IMG/VR virus record: IMGVR_UViG_3300020034_000026
Location: 1-50,889 of that record
Source of the DNA: a virus
Direction: 5' to 3' (one strand)
Length of the DNA stretch: 50,889 nt
Shown here: positions 4,993 through 35,349 of the stretch, one piece after another
Numbering within the stretch: position 1 is the first letter of the stretch
How the letters are laid out: the number at the start of each line of letters is the position of its first letter
The notes under the pieces: model-generated
Seen by the model: the letters and a program-made list of their open reading frames with translations, nothing else
The model's database searches: none
What the model was told of the DNA's origin: nothing
Program-made: the position numbers and the translations under genes

Positions 4993-6351
4993 TCAGCGAG
5001 ACAGGATGATTCGGACGCCCACCTTATGGACGGCACCGGTCAACCGACCATTGGCTTCTAGCCCCGGAAAGTATCGAGCGATTCGGTCTGCTACAGACAT
5101 GTCCTCCACACGTGAGGTGATGAACTGAGGAGACTGTGGCGTCGGAGGATCATCCGAGGCGTCTGTCTCATCGATCATCACTCGATTGATGGCTCGACGG
5201 AAGGTGCCCCGAAGGGCTCCCTCAAGCTTGGTAACATCCTTGTTCGTATATGCCACCTTGGTAGGGGCGTTGAATATAACATCAGCGATGCTCTTGATGG
5301 CGTCATCCTTGATCCAGTCGATCGATCTCTGGATGTCAATGAAGTCGCCGTCCCCTGTGGTCCCGTTGAACGTGACATTGCGGCCTGCAACACGCTCGAT
5401 GGAGTTGCCATTCTTGGCTACAAGATTCCCTCTCTGAGTAGGAGTGAGGGCAACAGCGGGAACTCCGGCTAGCGTCTTCCCGAACCAAGTCTCACTGCCT
5501 GCATCCAGAGGTAGAACCTTCCCCATCCATGCGGCACCGAACATAGAAGCAGGGGAAGGATGGTAGTTGCCCATCACACGTGCGTGCGCATCGGAGGCAA
5601 TCGTATCCACGAGATCCCCACCCCCAGCAACAGTCGTAATGACCGCGCTGTCATTGGTATCGATGAGGGCAGTCTTCTCATTCGCCTCCACCCAGTCCTT
5701 TACGGCAGAGCCATAGGCAAAGGAGTTGAACATGGGGTAGACGCAGTAGAAGTCATCGTTCTCCAGACGAATAGCCGCAAGATCCGTGGCCACCCCTGGG
5801 TCAACGTGAGTCTGTGCAACAGCGAAGTCATCTACCGTAGAAACCTCGACAGAGAACCATCCCCCTGCCGCGTTAGCCGTGAGCACCAAAGTGGTGGTCC
5901 CCGTTGCCGTGTAGTTCTTCGATGCAACACCGTTGAATGCAGCAATCAGCTGGGTGACAATGGTTCCCGCTGTCGGCGATGCCGCCGAGGTAATCGACAG
6001 AACCGTGCGGCTGAAACCCTCCCCTTCTACAGTGACGTAGTAGATATGCGAGTTCCTCACCACAGGGGTAAGAATGTAGACCTGAGTTGGCGGGAGCAAA
6101 CCTCGACCGACCCGGGCATTCTGGGGATGAGGAGTCTGTGCCATGATGGCGTTGACAGCCCGCACCTCAGCGTCATCTGCGGCATACCCATCCGCCACCA
6201 TGTCAACCCCGCTAGCGTACAGACGCGAACGTTCAGAAGTTAACCATGGAGCATTGTACCCCAAGACAAAAGGAGTCCCGAACCCCAGACGAGTGAGGCC
6301 CCGAGAGTCTTTGGTAATGACCGCGTCAACGTAGTTTCTGATATCAGCCAT
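4993..6351 (-). CDS. Tail sheath protein (DUF3383-like)
   Basis: A 452-aa protein with the layout of DUF3383-type sheath proteins. The N-terminus is LTRLGFGTPFVLGYNAPW, followed by a beta-rich insertion (residues 105-185, with VTVEGEGFSRTVLSITSAA). The conserved C-terminal domain includes IDIQRSIDWIKDDAIKSIAD and ends VHKVGVRIILSR. The sheath contracts to drive the tube through the envelope. GAGGAGAGAAC precedes ATG 6351. Two copies of the dispersed motif lie inside (5352 as Thr-Thr-Gly, 6059 as Pro-Val-Val). Its presence defines the phage as a myovirus. Confidence 0.88.
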   Translation of the reverse strand: MADIRNYVDAVITKDSRGLTRLGFGTPFVLGYNAPWLTSERSRLYASGVDMVADGYAADDAEVRAVNAIMAQTPHPQNARVGRGLLPPTQVYILTPVVRNSHIYYVTVEGEGFSRTVLSITSAASPTAGTIVTQLIAAFNGVASKNYTATGTTTLVLTANAAGGWFSVEVSTVDDFAVAQTHVDPGVATDLAAIRLENDDFYCVYPMFNSFAYGSAVKDWVEANEKTALIDTNDSAVITTVAGGGDLVDTIASDAHARVMGNYHPSPASMFGAAWMGKVLPLDAGSETWFGKTLAGVPAVALTPTQRGNLVAKNGNSIERVAGRNVTFNGTTGDGDFIDIQRSIDWIKDDAIKSIADVIFNAPTKVAYTNKDVTKLEGALRGTFRRAINRVMIDETDASDDPPTPQSPQFITSRVEDMSVADRIARYFPGLEANGRLTGAVHKVGVRIILSR

Positions 6352-17082: not shown

Positions 17083-18609
17083 TTACATCTGTCCGAGCAT
17101 GATGGTTCGAAGTTCATCGATGTTCTGAGACCCATAGATGATGCCTTGAGAAGTAGCATCTACACGGTCATTCTTGCGACCTAGCTTGGGGAAGGTGTTC
17201 CACTCATGGAACCACTTGCCTAGCCATGGTGCGCCCTCGGGAATAACCACCTGTCCTGCTTTGACCACAGGGACAATCGCGTTGCCACGAGCTTCCTTGC
17301 CACCTTCGGGATCTACTTCGATGATGCCGCGAACCTTTTTGAACAGATGATTGACAATGGCCGAGCCATTAGCCTTCGCTTCCACAAGTACACGACCAAT
17401 GCGATTGTCTCCTTCGGTTACTGCAACGATGTTCTCGCATGTCTCATCGAAGGTCATATGGTCGGTGTAGTCTTCCAAGACAAACACAAGGGCATCAAGA
17501 AAGCCTAGCTTTACCATCCCTACTCTAGAGCCCGTGTCAATCTTTTTGAAGGCTGCGTCTACCGACAACAGAATCGCATCGAAGTCATCATCATCAGGAA
17601 GTATGATAGAGCTATTTGAATTGCAACCCTTTGGGCGAACGTAAGCTCTGTTATCCCCTTTACGCTTCCAGAAGTTCCACCATGTCTGCTTAAACATGCC
17701 ACCGCCGCGAGGTGCGGGCGCCTGTTGAAACTGGGCAGCTGTAGCGTAGGGACCCATGGCTTTCTTGTCGCGCTCAACTACTTCACGAGTCATCTTCTCA
17801 GGCCACAGAAGCTCATTGTCCAGAGTACGTGGATCCTGAAAGAACAGCCGCTCGTTGATGTACACAAAGCACTTGCGATCTGGTTCGAATTCCATAGGCA
17901 GCATGAGGTGCGTGTACCCAAGCTGTGCCTCGAGGATATGACCGCTTACATCAGAGTCACCAACACGCTGCATAATGACGATGATCGCAGACTTCTGCGC
18001 ATCGGCTAGCCGAGTGGGCAACACCTCATCAAACCACAGGAGGACCTCTTTCTGCTTAGCCTCCGATTCCCCTTCTTTGATGTTGTGGGGGTCATCAACA
18101 ATGACGCGATCGGCTCTCTCACCGGTACCTAGACCACCAACCGAAGAGGCAATCTTCCACCCCATCTTGTTGGTGTCGAATCGAATCTTGGAGTTCTGAT
18201 CTCCGACAACATGAAAACGATCACCCCACCGGGACTGATACCACTTACTCTGGATGATGTTTCGAGAACGGCGGTTGTCTCTCTTAGTCAACTCATGGGA
18301 ATACGACATGCACAGGTATCGTAGCCCTGCATGATTCTTTGGGCCCCACTCCCACGTCGGCCAAAAGACTTCAGTCGATAGACTTTTCATCAGCCCCGGA
18401 GGCTCATTGATGAGAAGCCTGTTGATATGACCCGCAGATACCGCGCTCAGATGGTCATTGACTGCATCTTGATGCCACCCAGGAATCATGTCTCGGGTAG
18501 GCTCAACAATATGCCACGCCAGGCGCGAGTAAGCCGATAGGCTCTCAGCGCTATCAATGATATCTAGCTGTCGTAGAGTCTCTTCAGGATCTAAATCAAA
18601 AGCGTACAC
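17083..18609 (-). CDS. terL: Terminase large subunit
   Basis: A 508-aa packaging motor. The N-terminal ATPase has NRLLINEPPGLMKSL (Walker A type, about residues 61-75) and ADRVIVDDPHNI (Walker B, about 165). IIVIMQRVGDSDVSGHIL matches the coupling motif region. The C-terminal nuclease domain begins near ILLSVDAAFKKID (about residue 344) with a later acidic site in RKNDRVDATSQGI. The gene lies three bases after the small subunit. The motif copy at 17264 encodes Pro-Val-Val. A 30-bp stretch at 18188-18217 is duplicated at 23805-23834. No sequence clue tells cos from headful packaging. Confidence 0.93.
   Translation of the reverse strand: MYAFDLDPEETLRQLDIIDSAESLSAYSRLAWHIVEPTRDMIPGWHQDAVNDHLSAVSAGHINRLLINEPPGLMKSLSTEVFWPTWEWGPKNHAGLRYLCMSYSHELTKRDNRRSRNIIQSKWYQSRWGDRFHVVGDQNSKIRFDTNKMGWKIASSVGGLGTGERADRVIVDDPHNIKEGESEAKQKEVLLWFDEVLPTRLADAQKSAIIVIMQRVGDSDVSGHILEAQLGYTHLMLPMEFEPDRKCFVYINERLFFQDPRTLDNELLWPEKMTREVVERDKKAMGPYATAAQFQQAPAPRGGGMFKQTWWNFWKRKGDNRAYVRPKGCNSNSSIILPDDDDFDAILLSVDAAFKKIDTGSRVGMVKLGFLDALVFVLEDYTDHMTFDETCENIVAVTEGDNRIGRVLVEAKANGSAIVNHLFKKVRGIIEVDPEGGKEARGNAIVPVVKAGQVVIPEGAPWLGKWFHEWNTFPKLGRKNDRVDATSQGIIYGSQNIDELRTIMLGQM
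18188..18217 (+). repeat. 30-bp repeat, donor copy inside terL
   Basis: These 30 bases, beginning TTGGAGTTCTG and ending CAACATGAAAA, recur exactly at 23805-23834. The terL copy is in continuous coding sequence, so it is likely the donor. Confidence 0.85.
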
Positions 18610-22882: not shown

Positions 22883-23158
22883 ATGAACACGCACCCAGAA
22901 CTTCGCATCGACGTCACCATGCAAGATATCCAAAAGGGTCAACCCAAAACGGCTTGCGATTGCCCAGTCGCTCTAGCCATCAAGAGGAACCCAAAGGTAG
23001 TCAACGCAATCGTAACCTACGATAAGATCACAGTATTCATACATGACCAAGCTTGGTATGATATGGAGGTACCGGAGATAGTTGGGCACTTCCTCAACAA
23101 GTTCGACAGATACGAGCTTGTGGAACCCTTCTCCTTCACGCTAGATCTAACCAAATGA
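22883..23158 (+). CDS. CxCP-ALAI family protein, paralogue 1
   Basis: A 91-aa protein, first of three tandem related genes. Shared plan: (I/V)xVTxxxIxxG at the start, then ACDCPVALAIKRNPKVVNAI (C-x-C-P-x-A-L-A-I), a beta strand with aromatic residues (ITVFIHDQAWYDMEV), then VGHFLNKFDRYELVEPFSFT. The two Cys could bind metal or a partner. Its end overlaps paralogue 2 by 4 bp. Similar small proteins occur in other phages without known function. Confidence 0.65.
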   Translation: MNTHPELRIDVTMQDIQKGQPKTACDCPVALAIKRNPKVVNAIVTYDKITVFIHDQAWYDMEVPEIVGHFLNKFDRYELVEPFSFTLDLTK

Positions 23159-23502
23159 ATCTAAAGACCATGACCATGACCGACGTCAAGAAATTATTTA
23201 TCATCGTCACCCAGGAGCATATCGACAAGGGTATCCCCAGGGATTCCTGCAAGTGTCCGATAGCCCTAGCCATCATGGATCATCCAGATGTAACCAAGGT
23301 ACTCATAAGCTATGCTTACATCGTCTTCAGGCTCACCGATGGGGCATACTATCGAGTAATGACTGATGATTTCATAAAAAACTTCCTGGATAGGTTCGAT
23401 TCGGGGGACGCTATCTACATCTCCTCCCCGTTCTCTTTCTTCCTGCCTCTGATAAAGGCCCCCTCCCATTCCATCCACTATAAGGACGAGGCATCCATAT
23501 GA
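23155..23502 (+). CDS. CxCP-ALAI family protein, paralogue 2
   Basis: A 115-aa protein (LFIIVTQEHIDKGIPRDSCK, CPIALAIMDHPDVTKVLISY, FIKNFLDRFDSGDAIYISSP, FSFFLPLI). It follows the same plan as its neighbours: VTQEHIDKG, C-x-CPIALAI, a beta strand, F..RFD and a terminal PFSFFL. It has a short C-terminal extension (HSIHYKDEASI). It overlaps both neighbours by 4 bp, so translation is probably coupled. Confidence 0.65.
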   Translation: MNLKTMTMTDVKKLFIIVTQEHIDKGIPRDSCKCPIALAIMDHPDVTKVLISYAYIVFRLTDGAYYRVMTDDFIKNFLDRFDSGDAIYISSPFSFFLPLIKAPSHSIHYKDEASI

Positions 23503-23816
23503 TAATCAACGTAACCGCCCTCCATATCATCACTGGAGTAGGCAGGAGTTCCGAGGAGTGCCCCGTCGCTCTAGCGGTGAAGGAAGCAACGAGAGCCTTC
23601 CGAGTTACAGTTACACTCAACGATATCAGTATCAGGCAAACCATCAATGATATCTATGAGTCCATAAGTACCCCAGATGTAGCTAGGCAGTTCATCGCAC
23701 GATTCGACCAGCAAGCCCTACACAACCCCGAACGTTACCCCGGGCACTTCAAGCCCTTCTTCTTCTTCATTTATCCCCATGAAAAATCAACTCGATACAG
23801 GACTTTGGAGTTCTGA
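23499..23816 (+). CDS. CxCP-ALAI family protein, paralogue 3
   Basis: A 105-aa protein (IINVTALHIITGVGRSSEEC, PVALAVKEATRAFRVTVTLN, VARQFIARFDQQ, FKPFFFFIYP). Same plan as the two upstream genes, but only one Cys of the C-x-CP motif is kept (SSEECPVALAV). The last codons and stop (LEF*) come from a 30-bp segment that is identical to part of terL (see the repeat entry). The original C-terminus was therefore probably replaced. Confidence 0.65.
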   Translation: MIINVTALHIITGVGRSSEECPVALAVKEATRAFRVTVTLNDISIRQTINDIYESISTPDVARQFIARFDQQALHNPERYPGHFKPFFFFIYPHEKSTRYRTLEF

Positions 23817-23842
23817 TCTCCGACAACATGAAAAATCAACTC
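23778..23842 (+). repeat. Template-switch-like junction: 16-bp direct repeat around a 30-bp copy of terL
   Basis: CATGAAAAATCAACTC occurs at 23778-23793 and 23827-23842, and a further CAGGACTT follows each copy. Between them, bases 23805-23834 are identical to 18188-18217 inside terL (same strand as written, antisense to terL). The copied piece ends with ATGAAAA, which is also the start of the next gene. This pattern fits copying that jumped to terL and back through short homologies. It supplies the stop of paralogue 3 and the start of the 23828 gene. Confidence 0.8.
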
Positions 23843-24064
23843 AATGAAAATCAGGACTTGAAACCATTGACACCTGCACAGAGAACTCAGCGAGTCAAGG
23901 AGTGGGCCAAGATCTACAAGAAAGAAGCGATGCACCTAACGAGCAACAAAGTCCTTGAGAAGTTCCTTCTCATGATTTATGATGAGGCCTACCTTGAAGG
24001 TCTCTTTTCAGGAATGACTCGGGAAAAGAAGAGAGGAAAAGCCTGTGCCTTCGGACACGAGTAA
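23828..24064 (+). CDS. Hypothetical helical protein
   Basis: A 78-aa basic, helical protein (MKNQLNENQDLKPLTPAQRT, QRVKEWAKIYKKEAMHLTSN, KVLEKFLLMIYDEAYLEGLF). Its ATG lies at the end of the 30-bp segment shared with terL, and no ribosome binding site is at normal distance. It overlaps the following gene by 20 bp. Not recognised. Confidence 0.55.
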   Translation: MKNQLNENQDLKPLTPAQRTQRVKEWAKIYKKEAMHLTSNKVLEKFLLMIYDEAYLEGLFSGMTREKKRGKACAFGHE

Positions 24065-31161: not shown

Positions 31162-33549
31162 ATGCCACTTCTCTACGACCCGAACTGTACGAGATGCCCT
31201 CTGAGTAACCAGGCATTCTCTGTGTGCCTGCAGGGTAACGGACCACTCAACTCTAAGGCTCTCATCCTGTCGCAAGCTCCGTCCAGGTTCGATGATCTGA
31301 ATGGAGTGACCCTGGCAGGATCCCAGGCCAAGATCCTGAACCAAGCTCTGGCAGAGGTAGGCCTCCACAGGGCCACCATGCGCGCGACCAATCTCGTGCG
31401 CTGCCTACCCCCAGGTGATCGCCCCCCGACCGCGGCTGAGCAGCGCGCCTGTCGCCCCTACCTCGACAGTGAGCTAGAAGCCAGCGGCGCCACCCACGTG
31501 CTGCTGTTGGGCGCTGTTCCCCTGAGAGCGGTGACCACAGGGGCCAAGCTGCCCAAGCAACTGCGCGGGCGACCATTCACTCATGCAGGAAAAACCTACC
31601 TCCCCACGTTCCATCCGAATTATATCGTAAGATCCCCAAGGGCGAGATCCCAGCTGATCTCAGACCTAAGATTGTTCAAGTCTCTCATCGATGGAACGCA
31701 CAAGGAGGAACGCTTATCTATTGAGTATGTCACCCTTGACAACTTCACTACGTTCCTCTCCTACCTCCAAGGTGTGGTCTCACTAGATATAGAGACAACA
31801 TCACTGTATCCGTGGGCAGAAGATGCCAAGATTGTCTCTATCGGAGTTGGCACAAGACAGGCCCAGTACATATGGCCTATCAACTACCCTAGCCATCCCC
31901 TGTGGTCATATACATCCCCACGAGTAAAGCAGTTGATGGTGCAGAAACTCGTGCAGGCCCTAAGAATCTGTGAAGTAGCCACTCAATTCGGGAAGTTTGA
32001 CTCACTGTTTTTCAAGGTCATCTATGATGTAAACATCATTCCAGATATTGACACTGGACTGATGCACTACTCCATAGACGAAAACTCACCTCATGACCTT
32101 GAGTACTTGTCTCAGTCCTACTACGGCACCCCAGCATACGATGTTCCTCTGGAGACCAAGCATGGTAAGGATGGAGACATCGTAAAGCACGCCACTTACC
32201 TTGCCAAGGATCTAAAGTACACACGGAAGCTCTGCTTTGACATACGCAAGGATCTGGACAACCAGCCCAGCTCAAGGAAGATCTACGATACCCTCACCTT
32301 TCCAGTGTCGAAGATCTATCGGCAGATTGAGCTTAACGGTGTCCCTATCGACGTTCCCCGCATGGGTGAGGTAAAAACTCATCTAGAGAATCAGATCCAA
32401 GAGTCAACCTCAGCCCTAGATAAGATCGTCCCAGGGGTGAACTGGGCAAGCCACAAGCAAGTGGCAGTAGCCTTGTTCGATACGCTGGAACTACCGAGCC
32501 TGAAGGCTACCAAAAAGGGTGGGGATTCTGCAGATGAGTCTGTCCTACTGCAGATAGATCATCCCGTAGCTACTGCACTCTTGAAGCATCGCAGGGCGAA
32601 AAAGCTCCTGGGTACCTACATCAAGGGATGGGGACCCTATCTTGTAGGCGGAAGAATTCATCCCACCTTCAAGATTCACGGAACGGTAACATCAAGACCA
32701 TCCTGTGAACATCCGAACATTCAGCAGACAGACAGAGATCCTATCATCAGATCTCTGATCGCATCAGATGACCTAGACTGGGAAATAGTAGAGGTAGACC
32801 TATCCCAGGCAGAGCTTAGAATTACCGCGCACTGTTCCGGTGATAAGCGAATGAAGCGAATCTTTCAAGAGGGGGGTGACATCCACTCTGTTACCGCTTC
32901 AGAGATTCTAGAGATAGCTATCAACCTGATCACTAGCGAACAACGGTTCATAGCAAAGTCATTAAACTTTGGTCTCATTTATGGGATGTTCTGGAAAAAG
33001 CTAATCATCTATGCCCGAGATAACTACGGAGTGCACCTCACTCCGCGTCAAGCTCAGGACTTCAGAAACCGATTCTTCAGGCTGTACGCTTCCCTGCTAC
33101 CCTGGCACGAGAGAACGAGAAAATTCGTCCGCGCCAATGGATGGGTGCGGAACCTGTCCGGCAGAGTGAGAAGACTTCCTCTGGCACAGCTGCAGTATGA
33201 TTCCCCAGAGCGCGGGGAAGCCGAGAGACAAGCCATCAACTCGCCCATCCAGTCATTCGTGAGTGACATGGTACTCTCCTCCCTCATCATGGCAGACCAG
33301 GAGTTCACCTTAGACAATGTTAGAATTATTGCCACGGTACACGACTCCGTCTTAGCTCAAGTACATAAGTCTTACATCCCAGAGTACGCAGAGAAGATGT
33401 CAAGCTTCATAACCCATCCATTTATCCTAGATGAGTGGCGTATCAAGCTTGACGTTCCGATGGTGGCTGATGTCAAAATCGGCCCCTGGTCCAAAGGCAT
33501 CTCACTCGAGAAATGGATGCAACAATCACAAAAAGGAAAGGATTTTTAA
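31162..33549 (+). CDS. Uracil-DNA glycosylase-like domain fused to family A DNA polymerase
   Basis: A 795-aa protein. Residues 1-180 resemble family 4/5 uracil-DNA glycosylases: CTRCPLS, LILSQAPSRFDDLNGVTLAG, NLVRCLPPGDRPPTAAEQRA with the following CRPYL, and LPTFHPNYIVRSP. The four iron-sulphur Cys appear kept, but the usual GEAPG motif is SQAPS, so glycosylase activity is doubtful. A 3'-5' exonuclease follows (VVSLDIETTSLYPW, about 205). The polymerase domain has motif A VDLSQAELRITAH (about 543), motif B RFIAKSLNFGLIYG (about 594) and motif C VHDSVLAQV (about 725). This is the replicative polymerase. UDG-like/PolA fusions are known from SPO1-like phages. Confidence 0.88.
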   Translation: MPLLYDPNCTRCPLSNQAFSVCLQGNGPLNSKALILSQAPSRFDDLNGVTLAGSQAKILNQALAEVGLHRATMRATNLVRCLPPGDRPPTAAEQRACRPYLDSELEASGATHVLLLGAVPLRAVTTGAKLPKQLRGRPFTHAGKTYLPTFHPNYIVRSPRARSQLISDLRLFKSLIDGTHKEERLSIEYVTLDNFTTFLSYLQGVVSLDIETTSLYPWAEDAKIVSIGVGTRQAQYIWPINYPSHPLWSYTSPRVKQLMVQKLVQALRICEVATQFGKFDSLFFKVIYDVNIIPDIDTGLMHYSIDENSPHDLEYLSQSYYGTPAYDVPLETKHGKDGDIVKHATYLAKDLKYTRKLCFDIRKDLDNQPSSRKIYDTLTFPVSKIYRQIELNGVPIDVPRMGEVKTHLENQIQESTSALDKIVPGVNWASHKQVAVALFDTLELPSLKATKKGGDSADESVLLQIDHPVATALLKHRRAKKLLGTYIKGWGPYLVGGRIHPTFKIHGTVTSRPSCEHPNIQQTDRDPIIRSLIASDDLDWEIVEVDLSQAELRITAHCSGDKRMKRIFQEGGDIHSVTASEILEIAINLITSEQRFIAKSLNFGLIYGMFWKKLIIYARDNYGVHLTPRQAQDFRNRFFRLYASLLPWHERTRKFVRANGWVRNLSGRVRRLPLAQLQYDSPERGEAERQAINSPIQSFVSDMVLSSLIMADQEFTLDNVRIIATVHDSVLAQVHKSYIPEYAEKMSSFITHPFILDEWRIKLDVPMVADVKIGPWSKGISLEKWMQQSQKGKDF

Positions 33550-33554
33550 AAGTC

Positions 33555-34598
33555 ATGCCAACGTCACTGAAAGTCTGGGACCCTACATGGGCAATCAATC
33601 AATCGCGGGTGGCCATCGCAAGGCACTGCCCCCAAGCTCACCAGTATCACTATATCGAAAACCTAGTCCCGGTGAAGAATCCGAGACCGTTCGCTTTCGG
33701 CACCCTAGCCCACAAGGTACTTGAGACCTACGCTGAGACAGGATCATCCTTGCAAGCTCTGGAAGAGATTCGTAAGGTCTCTCCTGAAGACTTCCGCATG
33801 TTCTCAGAAGAAAAGGAGTACTACGGAGACATCCTCAATGACATATACGACATCATGTATGAGTATTTTCGGACATGGAACCCGAGGGAGTTCAAGTTCA
33901 TCAAGGTCGCAGAGAGAAACTCAGAGCATGAGTTCTGCACAGACATCTTGTACAAAGGCAAAAAGTTCAAGGTCAAGGGTACCATCGATGCCATCGTGCA
34001 GACCACCAATGGCAAGATCTGGCTAGTCGAAAACAAGACGTTCGGAACCTCTTTACCGAGTGAGGACGATCGATGGCGTAATCTTCAGACCAGCGTCTAC
34101 ATCAAGATTGCGCTGAAGCTCAAGATGGCCAAGCGCATTGATGGAATCCTGTGGAACTACATCTTGAGTAAGCCCCCAACCGTTCCTCAAGAGTTGAGGG
34201 ATGGGAGACTATCTCAGCGAGAGATCATCACACTTCCTAGCGTAGTCGAGCGCGAGCTGGGTGCCCGCTCCCTGCTCTCCTCCCCGAGCTACACCAAGCT
34301 CCGGGCCATGGCCGAGACGGGCCGCGGTCGCTACTTCCAGCGCATCTACAACCCGGTGGCGGCCCCTGTGGTTGACGCTCTGTGGCGCGGGTTCCTTGAC
34401 ACCGCTCTACTGATTGTAGATAATCGATTGCCGAATTACCGCAACATAGGCCGCCACTGCGGATGGTGCCAGTATGAGAGACTCTGCCGCACCGACTTGA
34501 CGGGAGGAGACCTCGAGTATGTTAAAGAGAAAGAGTACAAGGCTGGCGACGAAGATCAGCCCGGGAGCAAGAAACATCTCCCAGGTGATACTCAGTAA
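33555..34598 (+). CDS. RecB/Cas4-like PD-(D/E)XK nuclease
   Basis: A 347-aa protein (ATG 33555; an in-frame ATG at 33513 would overlap the polymerase). The nuclease core is KVKGTIDAIVQTTNGKIWLV followed by ENKT (about 140-160), then WRNLQTSVYIKIALKLKMAK. Near the C-terminus, NIGRHCGWCQYERLCRTDL gives Cys residues that, with an upstream Cys, could hold an iron-sulphur cluster as in Cas4/AddB-like exonucleases. It lies between the polymerase and a RecA-like ATPase, so it is probably a recombination exonuclease. Residues 245-275 are encoded by a GC-rich patch next to the motif copy at 34363. Confidence 0.78.
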   Translation: MPTSLKVWDPTWAINQSRVAIARHCPQAHQYHYIENLVPVKNPRPFAFGTLAHKVLETYAETGSSLQALEEIRKVSPEDFRMFSEEKEYYGDILNDIYDIMYEYFRTWNPREFKFIKVAERNSEHEFCTDILYKGKKFKVKGTIDAIVQTTNGKIWLVENKTFGTSLPSEDDRWRNLQTSVYIKIALKLKMAKRIDGILWNYILSKPPTVPQELRDGRLSQREIITLPSVVERELGARSLLSSPSYTKLRAMAETGRGRYFQRIYNPVAAPVVDALWRGFLDTALLIVDNRLPNYRNIGRHCGWCQYERLCRTDLTGGDLEYVKEKEYKAGDEDQPGSKKHLPGDTQ

Positions 34599-35349
34599 GC
34601 CTGGTAGAGACGAGTTCAGATCGTACGTCTTGTACGGTAGAAGCGGTACGGGAAAGACTACTCTGGCCGCATCATGGCCAAAGAAGCTAGTTCTGTTCGA
34701 TGTCAATGATAAGGGTACAGACTCTATCTCAGACATTCACGACGATGATATTGACATCATCAATGTTCGTTCCTGGGATGACTTCGAGGCTGGCTATTGG
34801 TACGTCTACGAGAAATCAAAAGACTACAGCACAGTCATCGTAGATACCGTATCTCAGCTGCAGCAGATCCTGGTGTATGAGATGTCGAAGAACAAGGACA
34901 AGCCTGGTCACTGGGGAACCATGACCAGGCAGGCGTGGGGCGACCTAACCTCCAAGATGAAAACGTGGATCACCTACTTCAGAGATCTACCTATGGAAGT
35001 TGTCTTTATCGCACAAGATAGAGTCTTTTCTGGGGATGAGGAGTCTGATGACAACCATATGATCGACCCGGAGGTAGGCCCAGCACTATCTCCTAGCGTA
35101 GCCAAGCATCTCAACGCCAGCGCTCACGTCATTGTCAACACTTTCATCAGAAGGAGAATCGTCAAGACCAAGCCCATCAAAGGCAAGTCCCAAAAGATAG
35201 AGAAGATCGACTACTGCCTCCGAGTAGGTCCGAATCCAATCTATGCCACCAAGTTTCGCAAGCCCAAGAGCATCATCCTCCCATCTGTCTTGAGCAATCC
35301 AGACTACGACAAGATCCGTTCCATCATGCTTCCCGAAAAGAAAGAATAA
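34519..35349 (+). CDS. RecA-like ATPase (Sak4-like, AAA)
   Basis: A 276-aa protein starting at ATG 34519 with GGAGGAG upstream, overlapping the nuclease gene by 80 bp. SYVLYGRSGTGKTTLAASWP (about 36-55) is a Walker A motif, KDYSTVIVDTVSQLQQ a Walker B, and DLPMEVVFIAQDRVFSGDEE follows. The layout agrees with phage nucleotide-binding/Sak4-type single-strand annealing proteins, which usually sit by a RecB-like exonuclease and an ssDNA-binding protein, as here. Confidence 0.78.
   Translation: MLKRKSTRLATKISPGARNISQVILSKPGRDEFRSYVLYGRSGTGKTTLAASWPKKLVLFDVNDKGTDSISDIHDDDIDIINVRSWDDFEAGYWYVYEKSKDYSTVIVDTVSQLQQILVYEMSKNKDKPGHWGTMTRQAWGDLTSKMKTWITYFRDLPMEVVFIAQDRVFSGDEESDDNHMIDPEVGPALSPSVAKHLNASAHVIVNTFIRRRIVKTKPIKGKSQKIEKIDYCLRVGPNPIYATKFRKPKSIILPSVLSNPDYDKIRSIMLPEKKE

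Follow-up and report, generated by a model that had tools for sequence, protein, structure and literature searches.

How did a piece of the terminase gene come to lie between two early genes of a phage, and does it do anything there? The window analysed here is a virus record from IMG/VR, taken over its whole length of 50,889 bases. Its minus-strand genes include terL, portal and tail sheath, and the early genes on the plus strand include DNA polymerase A, helicase, Sak4 and exonuclease, among others. The DNA polymerase A (31162-33549) is fused in one protein with an N-terminal uracil-DNA-glycosylase-superfamily domain (PF03167, E 1.3e-21). Three phrog_19191 paralogues lie in tandem at 22883-23816, upstream of the gene that we call gene 4; paralogues 2 and 3 are 37% and 29% identical to paralogue 1. 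No function is assigned to this family, whose members here are joined by stop/start overlaps and share a CPxALA motif and, at the C-terminus, PFxF. Distant relatives occur on six IMG/VR contigs (31-35% best-segment identity) and, weakly, in Gordonia phages. The seam between paralogue 3 and gene 4 carries the terL-like segment, and the features that bear on its origin are collected in Table 1.

Table 1. Features of the paralogue 3-gene 4 seam, its donor and the Sak4-like and exonuclease genes (window coordinates).
Feature	Coordinates	Strand	Basis or remark
Putative templated insert, 30 bp	23805..23834	+	identity to 18188-18217 in terL
Right-junction microhomology, 8 nt	23827..23834	+	CATGAAAA
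Donor, terL codons for FHVVGDQNSK (residues 132-141)	18188..18217	-	aligns with TerL relatives
Copy 1 of gene 4 start	23778..23805	+	CATGAAAAATCAACTC GATA CAGGACTT
Copy 2, functional gene 4 start	23827..23859	+	CATGAAAAATCAACTC AATGAAAAT CAGGACTT
terL, terminase large subunit (donor gene)	17083..18609	-	phrog_38 E 1.8e-73
Paralogue 3	23499..23816	+	phrog_19191
Gene 4, 78-aa orphan 3' of the scar	23828..24064	+	start ATG 23828
Sak4-like single-strand annealing protein	34519..35349	+	phrog_124 E 1.2e-36; PF13479
PD-(D/E)XK exonuclease, adjoining Sak4	33513..34598	+	phrog_1218 E 3.1e-42

The original prediction had described 30 bases at the seam as identical to a segment of terL, and the identity is exact, with 30 of 30 positions matching in the same orientation. 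This is the longest exact repeat within the window. It was recovered by a blastn self-search of the window with an E value of 5.5e-8, and in 30 sequences simulated under an order-2 Markov model the longest repeat measured 14-19, against the 30 observed. The edges of the match are abrupt, as the 40-base flanks of the two copies show only 25% and 15% identity. The flanks being unrelated, the 30-mer is not what remains of a longer duplication but an isolated ectopic copy, and we rejected paralogy of the terL region and the early-gene seam on the same figures.

The direction of copying can be read from the coding content. The peptide FHVVGDQNSK lies just upstream of the conserved SVGGxGTGER of TerL, and its counterparts in the nearest TerL relatives are FHFTGDQNAK (L003) and FQIAGDQNAK (L004). 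Because the 30-mer encodes a native, alignable part of TerL, terL served as donor and the seam between the early genes as acceptor, the direction that had been proposed; the donor expected elsewhere for a templated insertion is thereby identified. Within the insert, positions 23806-23826 can be assigned to terL alone, and 23827-23834 are common to terL and the gene-start copy. The 30-mer is present twice in the window and absent from 13 phage genomes at up to three mismatches, and exact searches for its 22-nt core gave no hit in IMG/VR or in a GTDB genome collection of 84,980 species, both of which may have lacked close neighbours of the window. A dispersed repeat or mobile element was therefore rejected: occurrence of the element at many sites, which the original prediction had named as the sign of a true repeat, was looked for in these collections and not found.

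The acceptor is itself duplicated, with CATGAAAAATCAACTC beginning at 23778 and again at 23827. The 16-bp direct repeat previously noted here (23778-23793/23827-23842) is real and can be extended to 23796/23845, with agreement at 18 of 19 positions, and the second repeated sequence noted with it, CAGGACTT, indeed recurs at 23798-23805 and 23852-23859. The insert sits exactly between the two halves, so that it is surrounded by the kind of acceptor duplication that an imperfect return would leave. The halves are unequal between CTC and CAGG, where copy 1 reads GATA (23794-23797) and copy 2 reads AATGAAAAT (23843-23851). This amounts to a 5-nt gap and two substitutions, next to 30 and 16 bp that are perfect. 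A third template for the GATA stretch was sought in the window, which offers only 11-mers elsewhere, at about chance level. Being 5 nt shorter, copy 1 could not start gene 4 in frame.

We compared the two junctions with random joins of terL to the acceptor region, leaving out the 30-mer itself. The right-hand overlap of 8 nt, CATGAAAA, has a P value of 1.7e-4 for an overlap of at least 8, which fits the proposed return at ATGAAAA. The left-hand overlap is a single nucleotide (23805, the last base of copy 1 and the first of the 30-mer), with a P value of 0.43 for at least 1; the sequences meeting there are CTTTGGAG in the scar and TCTTGGAG in terL. This indicates that the right joint was guided by homology, whereas the left joint was not demonstrably so, and the 'CTT/TTGGAG' homology formerly suggested for it was overstated, since it comes down to that one shared base.

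From the arrangement of these sequences we consider it likely that the scar records a single error of illegitimate recombination or of replication in the phage. While the gene 4 start was being copied, the growing strand would have quit its template after CAGGACTT, copied 22-30 nt of terL, 5.6 kb off and in the same orientation, and re-entered at CATGAAAA, a match of 8 nt lying some 30 nt upstream of the point of departure. The outcome would be a short tandem duplication (approximately 33 bp) carrying a templated insert of 22-30 bp. Leftward synthesis, departing first at CATGAAAA, would yield an identical product. The divergence between copies 1 and 2 may have arisen in the same event or afterwards; with a 5-nt gap and two substitutions lying beside perfect stretches, a single clean event does not give a full account. 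The template-switch reading of the original prediction is thus retained in its direction, its duplication and its return point, but not in its left microhomology or as one perfectly clean event, the copies being different. The sequence structure, the donor direction and the microhomology on the right are shown, whereas a single event, a replicative mechanism and any role of the phage's Sak4-like protein are inferred. Sak4 anneals single-stranded DNA (PMC5928155), and the Sak4-like annealing protein of the window is a possible agent of scar formation.

The consequences for the flanking genes appear to be slight. The insert was said to supply the stop of paralogue 3 and to lead into the next gene, and this is borne out: the protein ends in PHEKSTRYRTLEF and its TGA stop (23814-23816) falls within the insert, ahead of the gene 4 ATG. 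Its last residues, RYRTLEF, together with the stop, come from copy 1 and the insert. The altered tail lies outside the conserved part of the protein, because the homologues extend little beyond the PF(E/S)F motif. Both flanking frames are usable. Since paralogue 3 still stops 11 nt upstream of the ATG of gene 4, which is intact, the scar is probably near neutral. When the duplication and the insert are removed from the sequence, paralogue 3 would instead finish in PHEKSTQ within the start of gene 4, and this predicted overlap resembles the ATGA overlaps between paralogues 1 and 2 and between paralogues 2 and 3.

So plausible an overlapping gene pair would also be expected if the phage itself had a direct junction between paralogue 3 and gene 4 and the scar were a chimera of library preparation, whole-genome amplification or metagenome assembly. 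The window is an IMG/VR virus contig and hence probably a metagenome assembly, and a recent artefact would be expected to show a perfect 30/30 match without decay. However, had the graph been misjoined at a 30-bp repeat, the path would continue into terL on one side, whereas here it returns within 30 bp, and a duplication with internal differences (GATA versus AATGAAAAT) is not made by a simple chimera. We therefore regard an artefact as unlikely and the scar as probably genuine.

Those internal differences, set beside a perfect terL copy, are also what would remain if the gene start had first been duplicated in tandem and terL DNA had been inserted later. Two independent events would rarely coincide, however, in placing the insert exactly at the duplication boundary with an 8-nt overlap, and we consider this history very unlikely. 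Finally, the copying accident might have given the phage a functional antisense element: an early plus-strand transcript would pair with terL mRNA, and duplex formation with RNase III-type cleavage would depress TerL synthesis in the early phase of infection. The orientation suits such pairing, since the insert is on the plus strand and terL on the minus strand, so that 30 nt of an early transcript would match terL mRNA as a perfect complement; this requires no selection, however, and the opposite orientation was no less likely to arise by chance. The pairing site lies within the coding sequence and not at a ribosome site, and the insert has no significant hairpin and neither promoter nor terminator, so that we give the idea hardly any credence. 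The notion that the scar forms an RNA hairpin or attenuator was likewise rejected (fold z -0.56), as was that of a promoter or terminator made by the insert, counts matching those in shuffled sequences. The scar shows no sign of function.

To find the ancestral junction in related phages, the comparison called for by the original prediction, we searched IMG/VR, INPHARED and the 84,980 GTDB genomes at the protein and DNA levels. The queries were gene 4 and the next gene, paralogue 3 and the paralogue alignment, and the DNA polymerase. None of these collections yielded a contig with the paralogue 3-gene 4 pair, and the phrog_19191 homologues found have other genes downstream. Rarity was gauged on a small sample of 28 genomes or stretches (1.27 Mb), made up of 13 named phages and 15 IMG/VR relatives in terL. 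An isolated copy of coding sequence of at least 24 bp, more than 2 kb from its source, was found in 0 of the 28, and a broader survey of 102 shorter loci, filtered for low complexity, showed no such repeat of at least 24 bp. Exact repeats of at least 27 bp with a spacing above 1 kb occur in 3 of the 28. In CRP-902 (W04), a 30-mer recurs at a distance of 1.5 kb, its flanks showing weak similarity (45% and 35%), and is probably an internal repeat, and a 27-mer that precedes two gene starts looks regulatory. The repeats of W07 are embedded in longer similar stretches (left flanks 60-85% identity), and an AT-rich 33-mer of G008 looks like a gene-start region. The second-longest repeat of our own window is a 20/20 match between 6119-6138, in the tail sheath gene on the minus strand, and 35028-35047, in the Sak4-like gene on the plus strand. 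We rejected it as a second scar (E 0.015; a few of the 28 genomes or stretches compared contain isolated 20-21-mers too), and it is probably due to chance.

The terL-derived scar is rare yet mechanistically ordinary. If real, it is a well-preserved templated-insertion scar in a phage, in which the donor, the direction and one junction are readable from a single genome. It shows a gene seam rewritten, with a new C-terminus and stop on one side and a new leader on the other, and both genes surviving. The contribution is a small one, to the evolution of phage gene junctions, and not a new system.

Among known processes, template switching or MMBIR is recognised in the literature by junctions of microhomology that lead into short segments copied from other places (PMC2621351). 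The scar resembles such insertions in its short copy from a distant site, the microhomology at one of its junctions and its acceptor duplication; it differs in that they are described mostly from human, yeast and cancer genomes, whereas here the setting is a phage, one junction has a 1-nt overlap and there is no known ancestor. RecA-independent joins form in E. coli at less than 25 nt of homology (PMC2621351). Illegitimate recombination of this kind, in E. coli and phage, shares with the scar its short-homology joints and its bacterial or phage setting, but classically it yields simple deletions or excisions that have a single joint, whereas the scar has two joints and filler. In phage T4, templated mutation at ectopic imperfect repeats changes a few bases. 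There too, phage DNA is copied from an ectopic partial match; the difference is one of extent, a few bases in T4 against a 30-bp filler with a duplication here.
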